Assembly (NCBI RefSeq): GCF_945956965.1
Contig: NZ_CAMFJS010000018.1
Coordinates: forward strand, 1-64,000
Direction of reading: 5' to 3'
DNA length: 64,000 nt
Source of the DNA: an uncultured Roseateles sp.
Lineage (GTDB): Bacteria; Pseudomonadota; Gammaproteobacteria; Burkholderiales; Burkholderiaceae_C
Part shown: positions 4,349-16,678 of the stretch, piece by piece
Position numbering within the stretch: the stretch's first letter is position 1
Layout of the letters: each line of letters begins with the position of its first letter
The notes under the pieces: generated by a model
The model's input: the letters and a program-made list of their open reading frames with translations, nothing else
The model's database searches: none
Told to the model about the DNA's origin: nothing
Position numbers and translations under genes: made by a program

Positions 4349-5338
4349 ATGAACTTCTTCGCGGTCCTTTTGGCTTTGCTGTGTGAACAGCTCAAACCCC
4401 TTCGCCATGGCAATGGCATTCACCGCGCCGTGATTGGCTGGGTCCGCTGGACCGGTCGGAACTTCGATGCCGGGCGCGAACATCACTCCACCATCGTCTG
4501 GGCCATCACGGTGCTGGGCCCGGCTTTGGCCGTGGCCATCGCGTACCTGGCCGTACGCCATTTCAGCCTGCTACTGGCTTTGGCTTTGGATGTGGCGGTC
4601 TTGTATCTGACCCTGGGCTTTCGCCAGTTCAGCCACTACTTCACCGATATCCGCGATGCGCTGGAGCGCGCTGACGACAACGAGGCGCGCCGCCTGTTGT
4701 CGGAATGGCGCCACCTTGATGCCAGCGAGCTGCCCCGGACCGAGCTCGTTCGCCATGCCATTGAGCATTCGCTGCTGGCCGCGCACCGCCATGTGTTCGG
4801 CGTGTTCTTCTGCTTCATCTTGTTCTCGACCCTGGGGCTCGGACCGGCCGGGGCGGTGCTGTACCGCATGGCCGAGTTTGCCGGCCGTTACTGGGCATTT
4901 AAGAGTCGCACGCTGGATGCGCCCACCAATGAACGCTTGATGCTGCTCTCGCGCCGTTTGTTTGGTTTGATCGACTATATGCCGGCCCGTTTTACCGCCG
5001 CGGGCTTCACCATTGTGGGCAATTTCGAAGAAGCGGTGAACGGCTGGCGGCGGGATGCCCGGCTGTGGCTGCACCCGAACGAGGGCATCATCTTGGCCTC
5101 GGCCGCCGGTGCGCTGGGCTTGCAGCTCGGCGGCGTAGCCGCCCCAGGCGTGACGCCAGACCGCAGCAAGACCTTCAGCTCCGGCGTGGATGCTGATGCC
5201 ACCGGAGCTGACGGCTCCACCCCTGGCCAGATTCCGCAGCTGGGGCATTTGCAGAGCGTGGTCGGCCTGATCTGGCGCTCTGTCGTGCTGTGGATGCTTT
5301 TGCTGGCCTTGCTGACGCTGGCGAATTTGTTGGGTTGA
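4349..5338 (+). CDS. CobD/CbiB family membrane protein
   Basis: The 329-residue protein belongs to the CobD/CbiB family. Classical members attach aminopropanol to cobyric acid in cobalamin synthesis; AmpE, a beta-lactamase-induction sensor, is a relative. I chose the ATG giving MNFFAVLLALLCEQLKPL, a hydrophobic first helix with the family's conserved Glu. Further membrane segments occur near residues 48-66, 70-88, 145-165 and 305-325. No other cobalamin gene is in the window, and betaproteobacteria usually keep this gene next to the NUDIX gene outside cob clusters, so a direct cobalamin role is uncertain. Confidence 0.82.
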   Translation: MNFFAVLLALLCEQLKPLRHGNGIHRAVIGWVRWTGRNFDAGREHHSTIVWAITVLGPALAVAIAYLAVRHFSLLLALALDVAVLYLTLGFRQFSHYFTDIRDALERADDNEARRLLSEWRHLDASELPRTELVRHAIEHSLLAAHRHVFGVFFCFILFSTLGLGPAGAVLYRMAEFAGRYWAFKSRTLDAPTNERLMLLSRRLFGLIDYMPARFTAAGFTIVGNFEEAVNGWRRDARLWLHPNEGIILASAAGALGLQLGGVAAPGVTPDRSKTFSSGVDADATGADGSTPGQIPQLGHLQSVVGLIWRSVVLWMLLLALLTLANLLG

Positions 5339-5426
5339 GGTCGCCGTCAAGTCCCAAAACGGCCTTGATGTTTGGGATTGACGGGCAAGCGAGGCACAAT
5401 GGCGAGGTCGGCTGACTCAGTGCGAC

Positions 5427-5453
5427 TAAAGTTTTCTGTGGTCCGGCCGAAAA
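5427..5453 (+). promoter_or_regulatory. Flagellar sigma-28 (FliA) promoter
   Basis: The -35 box TAAAGTTT matches the FliA consensus at all eight positions, the spacer is exactly 11 bases, and the -10 box GCCGAAAA matches GCCGATAA at seven of eight. It points at the EF-hand gene whose ATG is 93 bases beyond the -10 box. Confidence 0.82.
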
Positions 5454-5545
5454 CTGAGCGAGAACCATCTTTTTTCGATCGCTTCTCTTGTCTAGAGCGC
5501 TCAATTCTGGGTGGCTTCGTCAAGTCTTCCTCGCGGAGGTTTGCC

Positions 5546-6076
5546 ATGATTGCATCAATATCGAATTCATCCGATCCCGTCGGATTGGCCCTGAGGCCAA
5601 CACTTGAAGATCTCAGCAAGCGGCGAGAGCTGCAGTCGTCCCTGCCTGCCCAGCCTACAAACGCCGCTAGCGCCACTGACACCGGATCTGCCGTGGTGGC
5701 TATTTCCAGCGAAGGCGCGCGCCGCGCTGCCCAGGCCGACGCTCAGCCTGCTGCGAAGCCGAGCAAGCCGCCACCAGAGCCAGCATTCAGCGAGACCCCT
5801 GTGTCAACCGCCGTCGCCAATGCCATCAATGCAGCTCCTGCCCCCGCACCCAGCACCGTCGACAGCACCAACACCACCGGCTCGGTAAAGCGTTTCAAGG
5901 ATGCCGACTCCAACCAAGATGGCCGCGTCAGCGTTCTGGAGGCCCGGGCTTACGATTTCAAGCATCCCAGCATTCCAGCCCCGCAACTTGATGGCGATGT
6001 GGCCGTGAACCGTTCGGCCAGCGCCGACGTCAAGGCCTACGAGGCGGTAGCCCGCTCGGGCAAGAGCAACGCCTGA
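5546..6076 (+). CDS. EF-hand domain protein, FliA-dependent
   Basis: A 176-residue Ala/Pro/Ser-rich protein without recognisable enzyme domains. One canonical calcium-binding EF-hand loop, DADSNQDGRVSVLE, lies around residues 119-132 with acidic or oxygen ligands at positions 1, 3, 5 and 12. A second, degenerate loop may follow at QLDGDVAVNRSAS. There is no clear signal peptide or membrane helix. The start was set at the ATG preceded by GCGGAGGT; the reading frame stays open further upstream, but that part lies within the predicted promoter. The sigma-28 promoter suggests expression with late flagellar genes, so a motility or chemotaxis accessory role is inferred, not shown. Confidence 0.72.
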   Translation: MIASISNSSDPVGLALRPTLEDLSKRRELQSSLPAQPTNAASATDTGSAVVAISSEGARRAAQADAQPAAKPSKPPPEPAFSETPVSTAVANAINAAPAPAPSTVDSTNTTGSVKRFKDADSNQDGRVSVLEARAYDFKHPSIPAPQLDGDVAVNRSASADVKAYEAVARSGKSNA

Positions 6077-6123
6077 TCTGCAGTTGCATGCCTCTGCGGC
6101 CCTTGCAGTCGCTGCAGCCAATA

Positions 6124-6149
6124 AAAAAGCCCGCGACTGCGGGCTTTTT
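6124..6149. terminator. Bidirectional intrinsic terminator
   Basis: GCCCGC and GCGGGC pair around a GACT loop, flanked by an A-tract on the left and a T-tract on the right. It separates the convergent EF-hand and Tim44-domain genes and can serve both. Confidence 0.88.
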
Positions 6150-6177
6150 GTTGTCCGTGTTGAACGGTGGCAGCCGA

Positions 6178-7143
6178 TCAGGCGCGGGCTTGAATCCCGG
6201 CGATGGCCCATTCACGGCTTTCGTCTAGTGGGCGAACCAGGTGCCAGACTTCGTCGAAGTTTTCGGCGGCGGCCTCGCTTTGTTCGCGGATCAGGCCCCA
6301 GAAGCGCACGCTGACGATTTGCTGGCCATCCTCTTGGGCGCGCTCGACCACTTGGGCGTCGAGTTGCAGCACATCGGTGCGTTGGGCGGCACCCTTGCGG
6401 TCCAGCAAGTCCTGTTGCACCACACCGAACATCTCGGGTGTGGTGAAGCGGCGCAGATCGGCTTGATCGCCGCTGTCATTGGCGGCCTGCAGGCGGATGA
6501 AAACGCGTTTGGCCAATTGCTCGAAACCGGCGGTGTCAAACCCGTCATTCAGCGCAGCTGCAGGTGCCACGGCCGCCGCGGCCGGGGCATTGGCAGCCCC
6601 TGTAAAGGCGGCTGGGCTGGGCTGTACCGGGGCAGCAGGCACCGGCATTGGCTGCGAGGCAGCTGGCTGCATGGGGTTTGCTGGCGAAGGCTGGAAAGGC
6701 GCGCCGGCACCCGCGAACTGCATGCCCTGGGCGTCAGGCTTCGGCGTTGCGAATTTGCGCATCAGGAAGCGGATCAGGAAGAAGGCCGCGCCGGCCAGCA
6801 GCAACATGGTCATCATATTGGCGAGCGCACCGCCCATGCCGAAGTGGCTGGCCAAAGCGGCAATACCCAGGCCCGCGGCCAGGCCGGCGAGCGGACCCAT
6901 CCAGCTGCTCTTGGGCTTGGCAGCAGCCGCTGCCGGGGCTGCGGGCGCAGCCGGCGCGGCTTGCTGTGGGGCCGGTGAGGCTTGTTGGGCCGGAGCGCCC
7001 TTGCTGGCGTCGTGAGGCTGGGTCGGGGTCGCGCGTTTCATGCCCGAAGAGCCGCCGCCGCCCAGGCGCTTGGCATGGGCGTCAAACGAGGCCACGCCCA
7101 GGGCGCAAACCGCAATCAGTGCAGACAGAACAACACGTTTCAC
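6178..7143 (-). CDS. Tim44 domain protein, membrane-anchored
   Basis: The 321-residue protein has a signal-like N-terminus ending DAHA near residue 24, a Gly/Ser patch, a long Ala/Pro/Gln-rich linker (about 45-80), two hydrophobic segments near 82-102 and 106-124, a second Pro/Ala linker, and a C-terminal Tim44-like domain from about residue 205 (FDTAGFEQLAKRVFIRLQAA). In bacteria such proteins are inner-membrane anchored with the Tim44 fold outside or below the membrane; their function is not established. It is followed by the shared terminator. Confidence 0.82.
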   Translation of the reverse strand: MKRVVLSALIAVCALGVASFDAHAKRLGGGGSSGMKRATPTQPHDASKGAPAQQASPAPQQAAPAAPAAPAAAAAKPKSSWMGPLAGLAAGLGIAALASHFGMGGALANMMTMLLLAGAAFFLIRFLMRKFATPKPDAQGMQFAGAGAPFQPSPANPMQPAASQPMPVPAAPVQPSPAAFTGAANAPAAAAVAPAAALNDGFDTAGFEQLAKRVFIRLQAANDSGDQADLRRFTTPEMFGVVQQDLLDRKGAAQRTDVLQLDAQVVERAQEDGQQIVSVRFWGLIREQSEAAAENFDEVWHLVRPLDESREWAIAGIQARA

Positions 7144-9933: not shown

Positions 9934-10632
9934 TTAACGCGGCTCTTGGCTTTGGCGCTTCATCCAGCGCCGCACCAGCGTCATGGCCCCGCCCAGCAGC
10001 AACAAGGCCCCGGCCAGCAAGGCCCAGGTCAGCGGGCCAGGGTGTTGGATGGCCTGCAGAATGGTGTCCAGAAAGAAGGCCATCACCAGGGTAGAAGGCA
10101 GGATGCCGATCAAGGTGCCTAGCAGCATGTCGCTCAGGCGGATATGGGTGGCGCCGGCCACCATATTCACCACCGCGAAGGGCGCCACGGGCAGCAAGCG
10201 CAAGGTGATGACGGCCAGCAAGCCGCGCTCGCCCAGGCTTTGGCTGAGTTGCTGCACGCGTGGCCCGGCCAAGCGGCACAGCGCCTCATGGCCCAGCAGG
10301 CTGCCGGCGCCGTGGCTCAGCGCCGCCCCGATCAAGGCGCCGGCCACACTGGCCAGAGCGCCTTGCAGCGGTCCCAGCGCGGCAATCATCAGCAAGGTCA
10401 GCAAGCTCAGCGGCACGGCCAAGCTCACGGCCAGCGAAAAGAAGGCAATCGTCAGCAGCGGGCCCATGGATTGACCGCGTGCTTGCAACTGAGCCAGCAG
10501 CTTGGCCGGATCGAGGGCTTCGCGTAGCGGCGTGCTGCTCCAGGCCAGTGCCAGGCCCAGCAAGGCCAGCAGGCACAGGCCGAGCAGAATCAGCCGGCGC
10601 TGCAAGCGCCGTTTGTGCATCAAGGGGCTCAT
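9934..10632 (-). CDS. TVP38/TMEM64 (VTT) family membrane protein
   Basis: The 232-residue protein has an N-terminal helix after a basic cluster (HKRRLQRRLILLG) and a VTT core: hydrophobic segments near residues 58-80, 85-110, 140-165 and 195-220, with the Gly-rich GPLQGALASVAGALIGAAL stretch. VTT proteins (DedA relatives) are linked to lipid scramblase or transporter activity. Its ATG overlaps the NRPS stop by four bases, indicating coupled synthesis with the NRPS. Confidence 0.85.
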   Translation of the reverse strand: MSPLMHKRRLQRRLILLGLCLLALLGLALAWSSTPLREALDPAKLLAQLQARGQSMGPLLTIAFFSLAVSLAVPLSLLTLLMIAALGPLQGALASVAGALIGAALSHGAGSLLGHEALCRLAGPRVQQLSQSLGERGLLAVITLRLLPVAPFAVVNMVAGATHIRLSDMLLGTLIGILPSTLVMAFFLDTILQAIQHPGPLTWALLAGALLLLGGAMTLVRRWMKRQSQEPR

Positions 10633-13600
10633 GCGGGCAGGCCTGAGGGGAGGGTGGGGTTGCTGGCATCGTTCATCAGACCCACATTGTTGGCCTCGTC
10701 GGCTTTGTCGTCGCTGCCCTCCAGCGCTTCGCAGGCCTGCAGAAAGTCTCGCAACTCATGCGCCAGTTGGTCCACATGCTGGGGCTCGAAAATGGAGCCG
10801 TGCAAGCCGCTGACTTCACGCGTCACCATGCTCTTGGGCATGAGGCGTTGCCAAGGCTTGAAGAGCAGGCGGTTCCAGCTGGCGAGGCCGGTGGACTTGA
10901 TCAGCAACACGGGCCCGTCGAAGGCGGCGCAGCGGTAGCCGCGCAGGGCCAGCACCTGGCTGATCAGGCCGGGGTCGCTGAACATGGCGCCCAAGCGGCG
11001 GCCGTTCATGCTGAGATCCTGGACATGCAGTTTTTGCACCAGCCAGCCCAGCGTGCGCCAGGAGCCGGCGCCGCCAAACATGGCGTCGGGGTGGATGGAG
11101 TCGAGCAGGATCAGGCCACGCACCGCATGGCCGCGCCGAGCCAGCTCATTGGCGGTTTCGATGGCGGTGATGCCGCCCACCGAGAAGCCGGCCAACCAGC
11201 CGGGCGGGTTGTTCTGGGCCAGGATGCTGTCGGCATAGAGGCTGGCGAACTCCGCCATGGTGGCCGGCGCCGGGTCCAGCGGCGCTTGCAGCATGAAGAG
11301 ATTGACCTCGCCCTTGAGGGCCGTGGCCAGGTTTTGCAAACGCATCACATCACCGTGGCCGGAGGAGGCTAGATAGAGCGGGGCGGCACCGGGGCTGTAG
11401 TTCATGGCGCGCAGGATACCGGGCCGAGCTTGCGGTTTTGTGAGCGTTTGGGCCAGTTGGGCGATGGTGGGGTTGTCGGTGATCAACTGCAGCGGCAATC
11501 GGCGGCCTAAGTACTGCTCCATCGCATCCAGAATGCTCAGGGCGGCGAGGGAGTCGCCGCCCAGGTCGAAGAAGTTGTCATGCAGGCCGACCAGCGGCAG
11601 GACGCCTTCGGCTGCCTCTGCGGCGGAGGCCAGGGGCTTGGTAGACGGCGTGCGCAGGGCCATCGTCCATTGCTTTTGCAGCTCACGCTCCAGCTCGCTA
11701 TTGGCTTCGCGATGTTCGGGTTTGCCGCCGGCCAGCTGTGGCGAGGGCAAGGCTTTGTGATCGATCTTGCCATTGCTGCTCAGCGGCAACTCCGCCATCA
11801 AGGTGAAGCTGCTCGGGCGCATGTAGTCGGGCAGTCGGGCGCGCAGGCCGGCTTGGACTTCTGGCAGGCTCAGCGGCAATTCCAGGGCCAGCCAGGCGTG
11901 TAGCAAGGCCTTGCCTTCATGGTCAATTTTCTGCACCACTGCTTGCTTGACGCCGGGCACGGCGCAGCAGGCGGCCTCCACATCACCGAGTTCAATGCGG
12001 TAGCCGCGCAGCTTGATCTGGCGGTCATTGCGGCCGCTGAAGTGCAGATTGCCCAGGGTGTCCAGCCAGCCGCGGTCGCCGCTGCGGTACATGCGTGGCG
12101 CTGGCTCGCTGGCTTCCACAAAAGGGTCGGGCAAAAAAGCTTGTGCGTTCAGGTCGGGGCGGCCCAGGTAGCCGCGCGCCACCGCTTTGCCGCCAATGAA
12201 AATATCGCCCGGCACGCCGAAGGGCTGGGGCGCCAGATTGGCGTCGAGCACGTAGATGCGGGTGTCGTCGATGGGGCGGCCGATCGGGATATCGCTGCTG
12301 GGCGCCAGTGTTGGCGCGCCAGGCGGGGTGTTGAGATCGGCATTCGCCTCCTGGCTGCCCTGACACAGCCAGGCGGTGGCGAAGATGGCGGTTTCGGTGG
12401 GGCCGTAGACGTTGTAGAGCTGCACACCGGTTTCATCGACAAAGCGCTGCGCCAACTCGGGCGCCAGCACCTCGCCGCCGCTGCAGGCCACGCGCAGCTT
12501 GAGCGGCTTGCTCTTGCTGCGCCAGCCGGCCAGCAGGCCATTCAGCGTGGTCGGTACAAAGGCACTGAAAGTGGCCTCATGCTTGAGGATAAAGGCCGCC
12601 AGCTTTTGCGGGTGCAGCCGGCCCGGGGGCGGCAGGGCAATGCTGGCACCCTGGGTCAGCGGCAGCAGGAGTTCGATCAGCGCCGGGTCAAAGCCCAGCT
12701 GCGTGCCCTGAGCCGAGCGGTCGCTGGCATTGATGGCCCAGGCGCGCGACAACCAAGCCAAGCGGCGCGACAAGGTGTCGTGCTCAATCATCACTCCCTT
12801 GGGCCTGCCGGTGGAGCCGGAGGTGAAGAGCACATAGGCCAGATCCTCCGGCCTGGCCTTGGCCCAGGTCCACAAAGATTCGGCGTGCACGGCCTCGGCT
12901 GGCTCGGGCGCGGGGATGGGCTCGCTCAGCTTGGGGATGCGCAGGCAGCGTGAATGCAGGGGCGGCAACTCGGCCGATAAGTGGCTGTCCACCAACAAGG
13001 CCACGGCCTCGCTGTCGAGCAAGATGCTGGCCAAGCGGGCGTGCGGCAACTGTGGGTCTAGCGGCAAAAAGGCCGCGCCGGCCCGGCCTATGGCCAGCAA
13101 GGCCACCACCATTTCGGGGGAGCGCTCGGCCGCCAGGGCCACCACCTTGTTGCGGGTGGCGCCGAGCTGGCGCAGTTGCCCGGCCAAGGACTCGACCCGG
13201 CGCGCCAGCGCGGAATAGCTCAGCTGGCAGGTAGTTCCTTCCTGGCCCTCGCTTTGCTCCCAGATCAGCGCGCAGGCCTCGGGGCGCAGGGCGGCCTGGT
13301 GCTCGAACAGGTCGATATAGGGCTGCGGCGCATCGAGCTGGGCCAGGTCCTTGTGCAAGCCTTCCAGCAGCGCCCAGCGCTCTTCGGCCGGCACGATCTC
13401 AAACTGGCTCAGGCGGTCGCGCGGCTCTTGCACCAAGGCTTGCGCCAAGTGCCAGATGCGCCGGCCCAGCATGGCGGTCTCGGCGGCACTGAAGGCCAGG
13501 CTGCTGCTCTCCAACACCATCTCGGTGTCGGCCGTGCCGGCGAATTCACACACCGTCACGGCCAGCGGGTAACGCGCCAGGCCGGCGAAGAGTTGGCGCG

Positions 13601-14888
13601 AGTCCTGCAGCTCCGCCGCGCCGAACTCAAGGGCATAGTCTTGCCGCTCGAAGGACAAGAGCACGTCCAGCAAGCTGTCGCGTCCCTCCCGCATCAGCTG
13701 CAGTTGGTGGCTTAAATCACTCAGCGGATAGCGCGGATGGCGCAGCGCGCCTTGCACTTGCTGGGCCACATGGGCGAGCAACTCGGCGGCGCTGCTGTGT
13801 GGATCAAGCTGGATCTTGATGGCCAGAATGCCCACAAACATGCCCGGCGTCTGGCGAAAGCGCCGGCCCGAGCGGTTCAGGCTGGGCACACCGATGAGCA
13901 CCGACTGACGCTCCTGAATGCGCGCGAAGTACAGCGCCAGGGCGGCCAGAAAACAGGTGAAGGGTGTCGCCCCCAGGGCCAGCGCGGCATTGTTCAGCGC
14001 CGCATAGTCGGCCTGCTCCAACTGCTGGGTCACGATATGGGCGGGAGGGAGTGACTTTGCTGTGCTGATGGGCGCGGGCCCGCCATCAGGCTCGGCGGCC
14101 AGGCGCCGGCGTGGCTCGATCAGCGGCTTGGGTAACTCCTGCAGTTGCTGGCGCCAGTAGTTGGCGTCACGCTCGAAGAGGGCGGAGGCTTGGTATTGGG
14201 TGGACTCTTCGATGAAGTCGAGGTAGCTGGCCTTGCTTGCAGGTGATGCCGATGGGGCGGCTGGGCCGGCGGTTTGGGCTTGGGCTTGAATTTGGCCCTG
14301 GTCGGCGGCCTCGTGCTGCTGCAGCAGTTGATGCAGCTCGGTGAAGGAATCGCCGGGCCCGGGGTTCTGGCCCAAGGCCTGGTAGATCTCGGCCCACTCG
14401 CGCATCACTTGCGTGGTGCCCCAGCCGTCCATCACCAGATGGTGGAATTGAATTGTCAGGCCGTGCAACTCATCACCGGCGCGCAGCAGGGCAAAGCGCC
14501 AGGGTGGCTGGCCGCCCAGCACAAAGGGCTCGCGGATGCGGGCATGCCACCAATCGCGCATGGCATTCTTGGCGGCGCCTGAGTCCATCGTCTGGCCGTG
14601 GGTGATGTCCACCACTTCCAGCCGGGGCTCGAAAAAGGGCAGCAACTGCTGCGATCCGTCGGCCAGTGGGGCCAGGCGCAGGGCATCGCAGCGGTTCACC
14701 AGCAGGCGCAGGGCCTGCTCAAAGCGCGGCAGATCCAAGTGGCCGACCAGGAATGCGCCCCCGCCGATATTGAGGTGGGCGCTGCCCGGCCAGGCCCGTT
14801 GATCCAGCCAGACCTCGCGCTGGCTCAGCGAGAGCGGCAGGGTCAGGGGCTGGGGGGCGTTCAGTGGCCGGTCTGGTGATGATCCCAT
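10629..14888 (-). CDS. Single-module non-ribosomal peptide synthetase (C-A-T-TE)
   Basis: This 1419-residue protein holds one complete terminal NRPS module. The condensation domain begins at LPLSLSQREVW and has the catalytic HHLVMDG at residues 149-155. The adenylation domain shows FTSGSTGRPKG (about 685), NVYGPTETAIF, YRSGDRGWL, RNDRQIKLRGYRIELGD and the A10 lysine in SSNGKIDHKAL. The carrier domain has the phosphopantetheine Ser in FFDLGGDSLAAL (about 1112) and the thioesterase has AGFSVGGITA (about 1235). Hand-mapped specificity residues read D-P-I-A-C-G-V-I-F-K, which I do not recognise. The ATG overlaps the patatin gene by 28 bases. An acylated or capped single amino acid product is inferred. 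It needs a phosphopantetheinyl transferase encoded elsewhere. Confidence 0.93.
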   Translation of the reverse strand: MGSSPDRPLNAPQPLTLPLSLSQREVWLDQRAWPGSAHLNIGGGAFLVGHLDLPRFEQALRLLVNRCDALRLAPLADGSQQLLPFFEPRLEVVDITHGQTMDSGAAKNAMRDWWHARIREPFVLGGQPPWRFALLRAGDELHGLTIQFHHLVMDGWGTTQVMREWAEIYQALGQNPGPGDSFTELHQLLQQHEAADQGQIQAQAQTAGPAAPSASPASKASYLDFIEESTQYQASALFERDANYWRQQLQELPKPLIEPRRRLAAEPDGGPAPISTAKSLPPAHIVTQQLEQADYAALNNAALALGATPFTCFLAALALYFARIQERQSVLIGVPSLNRSGRRFRQTPGMFVGILAIKIQLDPHSSAAELLAHVAQQVQGALRHPRYPLSDLSHQLQLMREGRDSLLDVLLSFERQDYALEFGAAELQDSRQLFAGLARYPLAVTVCEFAGTADTEMVLESSSLAFSAAETAMLGRRIWHLAQALVQEPRDRLSQFEIVPAEERWALLEGLHKDLAQLDAPQPYIDLFEHQAALRPEACALIWEQSEGQEGTTCQLSYSALARRVESLAGQLRQLGATRNKVVALAAERSPEMVVALLAIGRAGAAFLPLDPQLPHARLASILLDSEAVALLVDSHLSAELPPLHSRCLRIPKLSEPIPAPEPAEAVHAESLWTWAKARPEDLAYVLFTSGSTGRPKGVMIEHDTLSRRLAWLSRAWAINASDRSAQGTQLGFDPALIELLLPLTQGASIALPPPGRLHPQKLAAFILKHEATFSAFVPTTLNGLLAGWRSKSKPLKLRVACSGGEVLAPELAQRFVDETGVQLYNVYGPTETAIFATAWLCQGSQEANADLNTPPGAPTLAPSSDIPIGRPIDDTRIYVLDANLAPQPFGVPGDIFIGGKAVARGYLGRPDLNAQAFLPDPFVEASEPAPRMYRSGDRGWLDTLGNLHFSGRNDRQIKLRGYRIELGDVEAACCAVPGVKQAVVQKIDHEGKALLHAWLALELPLSLPEVQAGLRARLPDYMRPSSFTLMAELPLSSNGKIDHKALPSPQLAGGKPEHREANSELERELQKQWTMALRTPSTKPLASAAEAAEGVLPLVGLHDNFFDLGGDSLAALSILDAMEQYLGRRLPLQLITDNPTIAQLAQTLTKPQARPGILRAMNYSPGAAPLYLASSGHGDVMRLQNLATALKGEVNLFMLQAPLDPAPATMAEFASLYADSILAQNNPPGWLAGFSVGGITAIETANELARRGHAVRGLILLDSIHPDAMFGGAGSWRTLGWLVQKLHVQDLSMNGRRLGAMFSDPGLISQVLALRGYRCAAFDGPVLLIKSTGLASWNRLLFKPWQRLMPKSMVTREVSGLHGSIFEPQHVDQLAHELRDFLQACEALEGSDDKADEANNVGLMNDASNPTLPSGLPA

Positions 14889-16678
14889 TGACTGATTTTT
14901 TCCATGGCGTAGCGATAGCCAACTTCGGCAATATCGGCTCCCTTGGCATAGGCCATGAGGGAAAAATCGGCCACCGGTGGTTCCAGATAGTGGTCGGCCT
15001 GGGCGATGGTGCGAAAGCGCTGATTCAGGCCGCCGACATGGCCGGCGCTGTAGAGGATGTCGGCAATGCTGGGTGACAACGGCGCCTTGGCGGAGAGCAT
15101 GCGCTTGAGGGTGCTTCTCACCGTCAGGCGCTGCAAGCCGGGGTCGGCGCTGAGGTTCTCGCGCACATCCACATCGATGGCGATGATGCGGCCATTGCCA
15201 CGCCGCCGCTCCAGCGGCGTGCCCAGGCGCATGCGCATGGCTTGCACCGGCACATTTTCCAGAATCGCACCGTCCACCAGCAGCTGACCGTCCAGCAGCA
15301 CCGGCGGGAACAGGCCGGCGGGCGAATTGCTGGCCAGCACCGCGCGCCACAGCGGGCCCTGGTCTTGCACGGTGGTATTGCCCAGGGTGAGGTTGCAGGC
15401 GGCGGCGAAGTAGGGCCGCCACAGGCCTTCGATCAAGCGCTCGCCAAACATGCGCTTGAGGTCGCGCTCGACCCGGCGGCCGCCGACGATGGAGATCAAG
15501 GGCAGGGTGGGGCGCTCACCGCCGGCCGCGAATTTTTGGGTGTTGCGCAGGATCTCGGGGAGGCTCAAGTCGCAAGCCACCTGGGCCCCGATCAGTGCAC
15601 CCATGCTGTTGCCACCAATCAGGTCGACCGGAATATGGCATTCCTGCAAGGCCCGCAGCACGCCCAGGTGGGCAAAGCCCCGCGCGCCGCCGCCGCCCAG
15701 CACCAGGCCGACGGCGCGGCCGGTGAGAAAACGGGCCAGGCGTTCGGAGTCATCGCGCCGATCACGCCGCAGCGGGTAGATGCGCTCCAGGTCGCGGCCC
15801 TGGTGCCAAGGGGCGGGCGGCACCGGTTCTGCCTGATCGGCGGGGTGCAGCAGCACCAGATGGTGGCGTTTGAAGGCGTAGCCGGTCTCGCCCATCAGGC
15901 TTTGTTCCACCGCGGTCAGGGCGGGGGATTGATGGGCGGCGGAAACGTAGATCAGCTGGTCGGCCTGGCGCAGGGCGAAGCGGCTCCAGTCGCAATCGCG
16001 ATCCGGGGTTTCGTAGACGATGAACTCATGCTCATCTTCGAGCCGCGCCCAATCCTGGCCGGTGAACAGCTCGCCGTTGAGCAGCAGCTGCTGGCCATCC
16101 GAGCTTTGGCAGAGATGGGCGGTGCGGCCGAGCTTAGAAAGCGCCAGGCTCAGCTCCTGCGCCAGCGGCCCCACGCCGGGGTCGGCATGCAAGGGCACCA
16201 GGGCGAAGGTTTGCGCCAAGCCTTGAACGGCGACCGTGTCCGTGGCATTGCGCATGCGGTCGTAGACGGCCTTGAGGAAGACCTGGCTGAGTTCGAGCGG
16301 AAAACGCTGCAAGAGCTGCTCGTAAGCCTGCCGACTCAGCAGCGCCAGACGCGAGTCGCGTAGCGCCGTCACATGCTGGGCGCGTGGCTGCTGGAGAATC
16401 ATGCCCAGCTCGCCCACGCTCTGGCCGGGTTGAACCTGGTTGTAGAGCAGCACGCGACCGTCCCGGTCGCGGCGCCAAACCCGCAGGCCGCCACTGATGA
16501 CGAAGAGAATGCTGTCGGATTCGGCGCCTTCGCGGATCAGCTCTTCACCGCCATGCACCCGCAACTCGTCCATCACGCCCACCAGGGCTTGCAGCACGAT
16601 TTCGCTCAGCGAGCCAAAGACGGCGCTGGCACGCAGCACCTCAGCGACCCGAACGCGAAAACTCAGCGGATGCTCCAT
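14861..16678 (-). CDS. Cyclic-nucleotide-binding patatin-like phospholipase
   Basis: A 605-residue protein of the neuropathy-target-esterase type. Residues 15-135 form a cNMP-binding-like domain (GGEELIREGAESDSILFVISGG; VGELGMILQQPRAQHVTA). A middle region of about 150 residues is Rossmann-like. The patatin domain from about 325 has the oxyanion GLVLGGGGARGFAHLGVL, the nucleophile Ser in GGNSMGALIG and the dyad Asp in LLVDGAILENVP. It should hydrolyse phospholipid or lysophospholipid acyl esters. It is first in the patatin-NRPS-VTT unit; a stem-loop terminator precedes it. Confidence 0.92.
   Translation of the reverse strand: MEHPLSFRVRVAEVLRASAVFGSLSEIVLQALVGVMDELRVHGGEELIREGAESDSILFVISGGLRVWRRDRDGRVLLYNQVQPGQSVGELGMILQQPRAQHVTALRDSRLALLSRQAYEQLLQRFPLELSQVFLKAVYDRMRNATDTVAVQGLAQTFALVPLHADPGVGPLAQELSLALSKLGRTAHLCQSSDGQQLLLNGELFTGQDWARLEDEHEFIVYETPDRDCDWSRFALRQADQLIYVSAAHQSPALTAVEQSLMGETGYAFKRHHLVLLHPADQAEPVPPAPWHQGRDLERIYPLRRDRRDDSERLARFLTGRAVGLVLGGGGARGFAHLGVLRALQECHIPVDLIGGNSMGALIGAQVACDLSLPEILRNTQKFAAGGERPTLPLISIVGGRRVERDLKRMFGERLIEGLWRPYFAAACNLTLGNTTVQDQGPLWRAVLASNSPAGLFPPVLLDGQLLVDGAILENVPVQAMRMRLGTPLERRRGNGRIIAIDVDVRENLSADPGLQRLTVRSTLKRMLSAKAPLSPSIADILYSAGHVGGLNQRFRTIAQADHYLEPPVADFSLMAYAKGADIAEVGYRYAMEKISQWDHHQTGH

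Follow-up and report, generated by a model that had tools for sequence, protein, structure and literature searches.

A conserved FliA-type promoter before a gene for a single-EF-loop protein in Roseateles and related genera

The gene and its product

The window, i.e., the whole analysed stretch of 64,000 nucleotides, carries on its forward strand a coding sequence of 176 codons (5546..6076) that begins with ATG at 5546, ends with TGA at 6074–6076, and is preceded by a leader and a FliA (sigma-28) box. The assignment of this Ala/Ser/Pro-rich protein gene (Ala 34, Ser 24, and Pro 17 of 176 residues) is based on the open reading frame, dN/dS, and alignment. Since dN/dS lies between 0.10 and 0.26 in five orthologue pairs, which indicates purifying selection, we regard 5546–6076 as a real gene.

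The upstream neighbour belongs to the CobD/CbiB family according to Pfam, and the downstream neighbour is convergent and Tim44-like by eye; profile scans near the gene covered the CobD-like neighbour and the 176-residue protein. A putative intrinsic two-way terminator, AAAAAGCCCGC-GACT-GCGGGCTTTTT (6124..6149, no strand assigned), was noted by eye between the gene and its convergent neighbour, and a terminator scan of 5300–6300 reported none, probably because of the T tract within the stem. Having its own box, leader, and terminator, and lying between CobD-like and convergent Tim44-like genes, the gene looks like a transcription unit of its own. The sequence-only reading had stated that no flagellar gene is nearby; indeed, none was recognised by eye among the predicted open reading frames of the window, and the canonical FliA of the same genome (NCBIfam, 275.5 bits) is encoded on another contig. 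Elsewhere in the window, an open reading frame of 1597 codons (10629–15422) resembles a non-ribosomal peptide synthetase by eye.

The conserved parts of the protein are the N-terminus, SAVVEISSEGARRA, the loop DxNxDGxVxxxE followed by AYDF.HP, and the terminal KAYEAVARSG. The alignment places the ISSEGARRA motif, which resembles ISPEGARKA of multi-EF-hand relatives, at residues 53–61 (5702..5728, forward strand) and the C-terminal motif DVKAYEAVARSG at residues 161–172 (6026..6061, forward strand); a low-confidence AlphaFold model has a C-terminal helix at 159–171. The orthologue of G015 (L014, G015:C100:3989-4492) has a TAG just past VA..G, slightly short of the usual C-terminus. In the alignment of 15 proteins, the linker is highly variable in both length and sequence, and the AlphaFold model obtained from 15 sequences (pLDDT 55.2, pTM 0.15) contains four short helices and is mostly without structure; the protein is probably largely disordered. 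No hydrophobic export signal was seen when the N-terminus was searched by eye, which is compatible with flagellar export and no more than compatible. Pfam and NCBIfam scans assigned no family to the protein, and a profile search of solved structures returned seq­uences at E ≤ 1, seven in all and 0.032 at best, that align with the region of the EF loop.

The single EF-hand loop, DSNQDGRVSVLE, occupies residues 121–132 (5906..5941, forward strand) and was located by alignment and by a sub-threshold Pfam match. A canonical EF loop has 12 residues, with ligands at positions 1, 3, 5, and 12 and a hydrophobic residue at position 8. DSNQDGRVSVLE fits this pattern: D121, N123, D125, and E132 are invariant in 15/15 aligned proteins, V128 is nearly invariant, and the glycine at loop position 6 is replaced by His or Tyr in two of the 15. 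A search for paired EF hands in the protein by Pfam and alignment gave one loop only, and its EF-hand_5 match (15.1 bits) falls below the cut-off of 25.9. The description of the product as a 176-residue protein with one textbook EF-hand loop is correct as regards the gene and the invariant ligands, although this lone loop does not reach the score that Pfam requires. The ligand pattern suggests that the loop binds calcium.

The FliA box in the genome and before orthologues

The box consists of a −35 element, TAAAGTTT (5427..5434), and a −10 element, GCCGAAAA (5446..5453), separated by the 11 bases TCTGTGGTCCG on the forward strand, with its first base at −119 from the ATG. Both elements were assigned by consensus match and orthologue comparison, and the −10 element also by its identity with that of E. 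coli tsr. Against the FliA consensus, which we take to be TAAAGTTT-N11-GCCGATAA, the box 5427–5453 agrees at 15/16 positions with an 11-base spacer, exactly as had been claimed from the sequence. It is the only match in the window when up to three mismatches are allowed (at least one match in 6/100 shuffles). In the genome (4.96 Mb, 64 contigs), a scan with spacer 11 and at most two mismatches gave five places versus one for the reversed-pattern control; the sole one-mismatch place was the box of the window, which therefore ranks as the best 11-spacer box of the genome.

A looser core, TAAAGT-N13-GYCGAWA, has two exact places in the genome. The other of these, TAAAGTTG-N11-GTCGATAG, starts some 100 bases upstream of a gene for a porin-like protein (Pfam Porin_4; L068:4802-6130, C19:54801). 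With at most one mismatch, the same core gave 16 places versus 30 in the reversed control, so that lone weak boxes carry no weight.

FlgM, FliS, FliD, flagellin, and CheD are all recognised by Pfam in the same genome. The boxes of such genes were calibrated on eight stretches besides the window, seven of them chosen for flagellar genes or earlier box matches, with a threshold of at least 13/16 on a relaxed score that permits T at base 2 and A at base 6 of the −10 element and was set after the orthologue and flagellar boxes had been seen. Boxes were found upstream of flgM (TAAAGGTT/GTCGATAC), fliS (TCAAGTTT/GTCGAAAA), fliD (TTTAGTTT/GCCGATAG), cheD (TAAAGACT/GCCGATAG), a cheY-like response-regulator gene (TCAAGTTC/CCCGATAA), and fliC (TAAAGTTT/GTCCGATA, 248 bases from the start, where a longer spacer may fit better). 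On the relaxed score the window box reaches 16, above all six flagellar and chemotaxis boxes (13 to 15). No box scoring at least 13 was found in the stretch with apparent flgK, flgL, and fliA (L062) or in the continuation of the window's contig (L067).

A single-EF-loop orthologue is present in 14/18 genomes of the genus, our own included; G002 and G014 gave no match for the protein, and G016 and G017 contain a multi-EF relative only. Four further single-loop orthologues come from four other genera (G024, G070, G156, and G326). The comparison thus covers 18 single-loop loci from five genera, 14 congeneric (the window's included) and four others, with Paucibacter sp. KBW04 and Roseateles oligotrophus counted once each among the congeners; several of the 18 loci come from close species and are not independent. 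Start codons of the orthologues were chosen by eye, that of G070 with its box known.

The sequence-only reading had named promoter conservation before orthologues as its refuting test, and it withstood this check: a FliA-like box lies at most 250 bases above the start codon in 18/18 single-loop loci. The box begins at −116 to −128 in 17 loci and at −51 in one; the spacer has 11 bases in 16 loci and 12 bases in G009 and G012. The −35 core is TAAAGT in 15 loci, TCAAGT in two, and TTCAGT in one, and the −10 core G[CT]CGA[AT] is found in all 18. Compared with 300 shuffles of each upstream stretch, the box has p = 0.003, the floor of the procedure, in 14 loci and p = 0.007–0.023 in the rest. For 15 loci the strict score was calculated as well; it lies between 10.5, a value that includes a spacer penalty, and 15 of 16. 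G005 and G006 each have a site within the coding sequence that equals the upstream box on this score.

In the upstream alignment, the two half-sites are conspicuous, as are the final ~30 bases ahead of the start codon, and the stretch above the box diverges while the distance of the box stays near-constant (17/18 loci). The CobD-like and Tim44-like neighbours are common to the 14 congeneric loci; in G024, G070, G156, and G326, neither neighbour was matched within the stretches at hand, and the box is still present.

Canonical FliA (>270 bits) was found in 17 of the 18 single-loop genomes and not in G015, an assembly 79% complete; since FliA is common in the family, this co-occurrence is weak evidence. 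A profile search of 299 family genomes gave 15 with a match at E 0.001, several via multi-EF or unrelated EF-hand proteins, and family-wide absences are soft because at most 11 candidates per genome were scored. The matches left out of the 18 as multi-EF or other EF-hand proteins (G005, second; G156, first; G076; G161; G085; G011, second; G123; G249; G289) have nearby best strict box scores of 9 to 10.5; the second match of G013, also left out as multi-EF, has a site scoring 12.

A chance match, with another sigma factor transcribing the gene, would be in keeping with the excess of one-mismatch core boxes in the reversed control and with the lower G+C content of the intergenic stretch 5339–5545 (0.546 vs 0.642 for the window), which favours AT-rich matches. 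However, a scan of 5300–6300 found no sigma-70-like promoter, and the box has kept its distance from the start codon in nearly all loci despite the divergence above it, so that we consider this explanation very improbable.

Overall, the top-ranking box, its presence in all 18 loci of five genera, and its likeness to the flgM, fliS, fliD, fliC, cheD, and cheY-like boxes strongly support the earlier proposal of an orphan member of the late regulon. To judge from these comparisons, the EF-loop gene very probably forms a late (class 3) flagellar transcription unit by itself, away from the flagellar clusters, and is transcribed by FliA from 5427–5453.

A FliA box also precedes a second orphan gene, at L069:5081-5389 (G000:C15, 85080–85388, minus strand), where TAAAGTTC-N11-GCCGAGAA lies 74 bases before the ATG. 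A Pfam scan of its 103-residue protein gave no match; several orthologues contain SANNIANTQTTDFRRQ and terminate in YAFVANLRVLQTQLDASGTMLDIHA, motifs that we take to resemble those of a small rod/hook axial protein. Among 16 places in 15 genomes, 12 loci were checked, that of our own genome among them, and a box of 13 or 14 of 16 (relaxed) precedes the gene in all 12. The EF-loop gene is also present in 14 of these 15 genomes, a nearly equal distribution.

The leader and the multi-EF-hand relatives

The 5′ leader, described by the comparison of sister species, has about 86 bases (5460..5545, forward strand) if its start is placed by the −10 element. The alignment shows a Shine–Dalgarno sequence, GGAGG (5535..5539, forward strand), in a conserved block ending in GGAGGTTTGCCATGAT, of which 18/38 columns are invariant among the 14 congeneric loci. 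In the closest pair, with G008, positions −92 to −1 (5454–5545) are identical at 92/92 bases, with the coding sequence at 85–90% and a dS of 0.52 for the gene. In 6/6 sister pairs the leader is better conserved than three other regions, namely the initial 100 bases of the coding sequence, its bases 100–500, and the intergenic DNA upstream of the box; in 5/6 it also surpasses the terminal part of the CobD-like gene. Gaps were counted as differences, two pairs have a common member, and all pairs come from one genus. The Shine–Dalgarno block accounts for the last 30 bases of the leader only.

This conservation above the level of the coding sequence is what could be expected if a genuine box served mainly to make the leader RNA, as a sigma-28 leader or small RNA, with the protein secondary; UTR-derived small RNAs dependent on sigma-28 are on record in PMC10578931. 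Across clades, however, the leader aligns poorly except for its last ~30 bases, and purifying selection on the protein is clear. Neither does the RNA look structured: an Rfam scan of 5380–5650 gave no match, the fold has a z-score of +0.91, i.e., no unusual stability, and none of the eight predicted pairs of the consensus hairpin has changes on both sides. On the fold and hairpin results we make no claim of a structured RNA, and a primary role of the leader RNA seems improbable to us. It should be noted that GTGGAGGTTTG occurs in the flgM leader (L066:6955-7359, minus strand) and in the leaders of several EF-loop orthologues; it is possibly a shared control site, or a chance coincidence.

In a profile comparison by hhalign, nearly the full length of the protein aligns with nine multi-EF-hand proteins from the genus and its kin (probability 98.7%, E = 1.8e-16). 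The likeness to these proteins, L088 for example, extends over the N-terminus, IS.EGAR, the last EF loop with AY..HP, and the Y..VA end. The difference is that most multi-EF relatives carry further loops, DSEGKGSVTASD and DADGNGQLSQSE for instance, at places where the window protein has none; Pfam EF hands at E 0.01 are found in 9/9 multi-EF-hand proteins versus 1/15 single-loop proteins. By this comparison of sequences the window protein is a reduced relative of the multi-EF-hand proteins, and it has probably lost all but the last calcium loop of that family, where we infer loss rather than gain.

With two of three calcium loops gone in comparison with most relatives and a linker so variable in length and sequence, the protein could represent the multi-EF-hand family in a state of decay, with its promoter retained and little function left. 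Against this speak the dN/dS values of the five pairs, the EF ligands invariant in 15 proteins, and the same location of the gene in 14/18 genomes of the genus, and we regard decay as quite improbable, somewhat more so than a primary leader RNA.

In the multi-EF genes themselves, the picture of the promoter is less clear. Those of G001, G003, G005, G006, G009, and G013 have possible CAAGTT-type boxes at −62 to −198, with four of these between −117 and −136. When compared with shuffles, all six are marginal (p = 0.027, 0.037, 0.037, 0.053, 0.070, and 0.159); the other three of the nine have no box (p = 0.14 to 0.53). In a wider look at 23 of 31 listed multi-EF places, the other 17 loci score 9 to 11, and the score of 11 in G009 is therefore not above background. 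With six of nine boxes marginal and three lacking, the idea that the multi-EF genes are likely FliA-driven was reduced to a suggestive one, and the link of the wider multi-EF family to FliA is at present suggestive on the strength of these upstream stretches.

Proposed function and comparison with known systems

In class 3 genes, export of FlgM sets FliA free. According to our proposed mechanism, FliA released on FlgM export after hook completion would transcribe the EF-loop gene from 5427–5453. The product would be soluble and, for the most part, probably disordered; its single EF loop at 121–132 may bind calcium, given the ligands, and its ISSEGARRA and KAYEAVARSG motifs probably bind a partner. 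The unfolded protein might leave via the flagellar export channel, or act there as an accessory factor. Calcium is plentiful outside the cell and scarce inside, and it would order the loop and so set where or when the partner is bound. Export or action at the flagellar channel together with calcium ordering of the loop is a tentative proposal, to which we give clearly less than even chances, and the earlier reading of the gene as a possible calcium-responsive motility factor is a guess.

The main rival concerns this mechanism and not membership in the regulon: the protein, made under FliA, may remain cytoplasmic and serve the flagellar or chemotaxis system as a chaperone or as a regulator that senses calcium. 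The N-terminus without a hydrophobic signal sequence by eye would suit such a protein, and FlgM, a small cytoplasmic regulator of the same genome, is also FliA-driven. However, a single EF loop is usually a weak binder, and cytoplasmic calcium, which is below micromolar, would hardly load it; the 176-residue protein also has no similarity to FlgM. We favour an exported or export-linked accessory factor, and a cytoplasmic role seems to us somewhat unlikely, though only slightly more doubtful than the channel mechanism.

In the broadest reading, Roseateles/Paucibacter and kin have a late flagellar component that has gone unrecognised, namely a FliA-controlled family of calcium-loop proteins that runs from multi-EF ancestors to the single-loop form. 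Its members would leave through the flagellar channel, be ordered by calcium outside the cell, and be tuned by the conserved leader RNA. Because the boxes of the multi-EF genes are marginal, we lowered our estimate for this reading and now hold it to be unlikely. If it were true, relatives named by similarity for a type III effector may partly be flagellar proteins.

Late flagellar orphan genes are a known kind; the product here is probably an unusual, undescribed member of the swimming gene set, as far as sequence comparison can indicate. In searches of the open full-text literature, we found no report of a FliA-controlled EF-hand protein. How calcium influences swimming in bacteria is not well explained, and a role is known for few of their EF-hand proteins. 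With a calcium-loop protein that a conserved promoter ties to flagellar expression, the relation between calcium and swimming would become directly accessible to genetics. Moreover, boxes conserved before orthologues can reveal late flagellar candidates outside the flagellar clusters, of which the second orphan gene is another example.

Among known systems, the XopAW family (NCBIfam NF041410), named for a calcium-binding effector of type III secretion, shows a weak similarity to residues 109–160 of the window protein (E 0.2); membership is ruled out by a score of 11.4 bits against a cut-off of 120. Multi-EF proteins of relatives do match NF041410, nearly all under its cut-off, and a search of our own genome (G000) with this model at E 1e-5 gave no match. 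FlgM (PF04316) and the 176-residue protein are alike in being small and encoded behind FliA boxes, but the latter has no PF04316 match and the genome has its own FlgM. The promoter of E. coli tsr is identical to the window box in all 16 half-site bases and in its 11-base spacer (PMC4183435), whereas the product of the window gene is not a chemoreceptor and its recognised domain is one weak EF loop only. In Table 2 of that source, the normalised expression of this FliA promoter is 630 in the wild type and 9 without fliA (PMC4183435).
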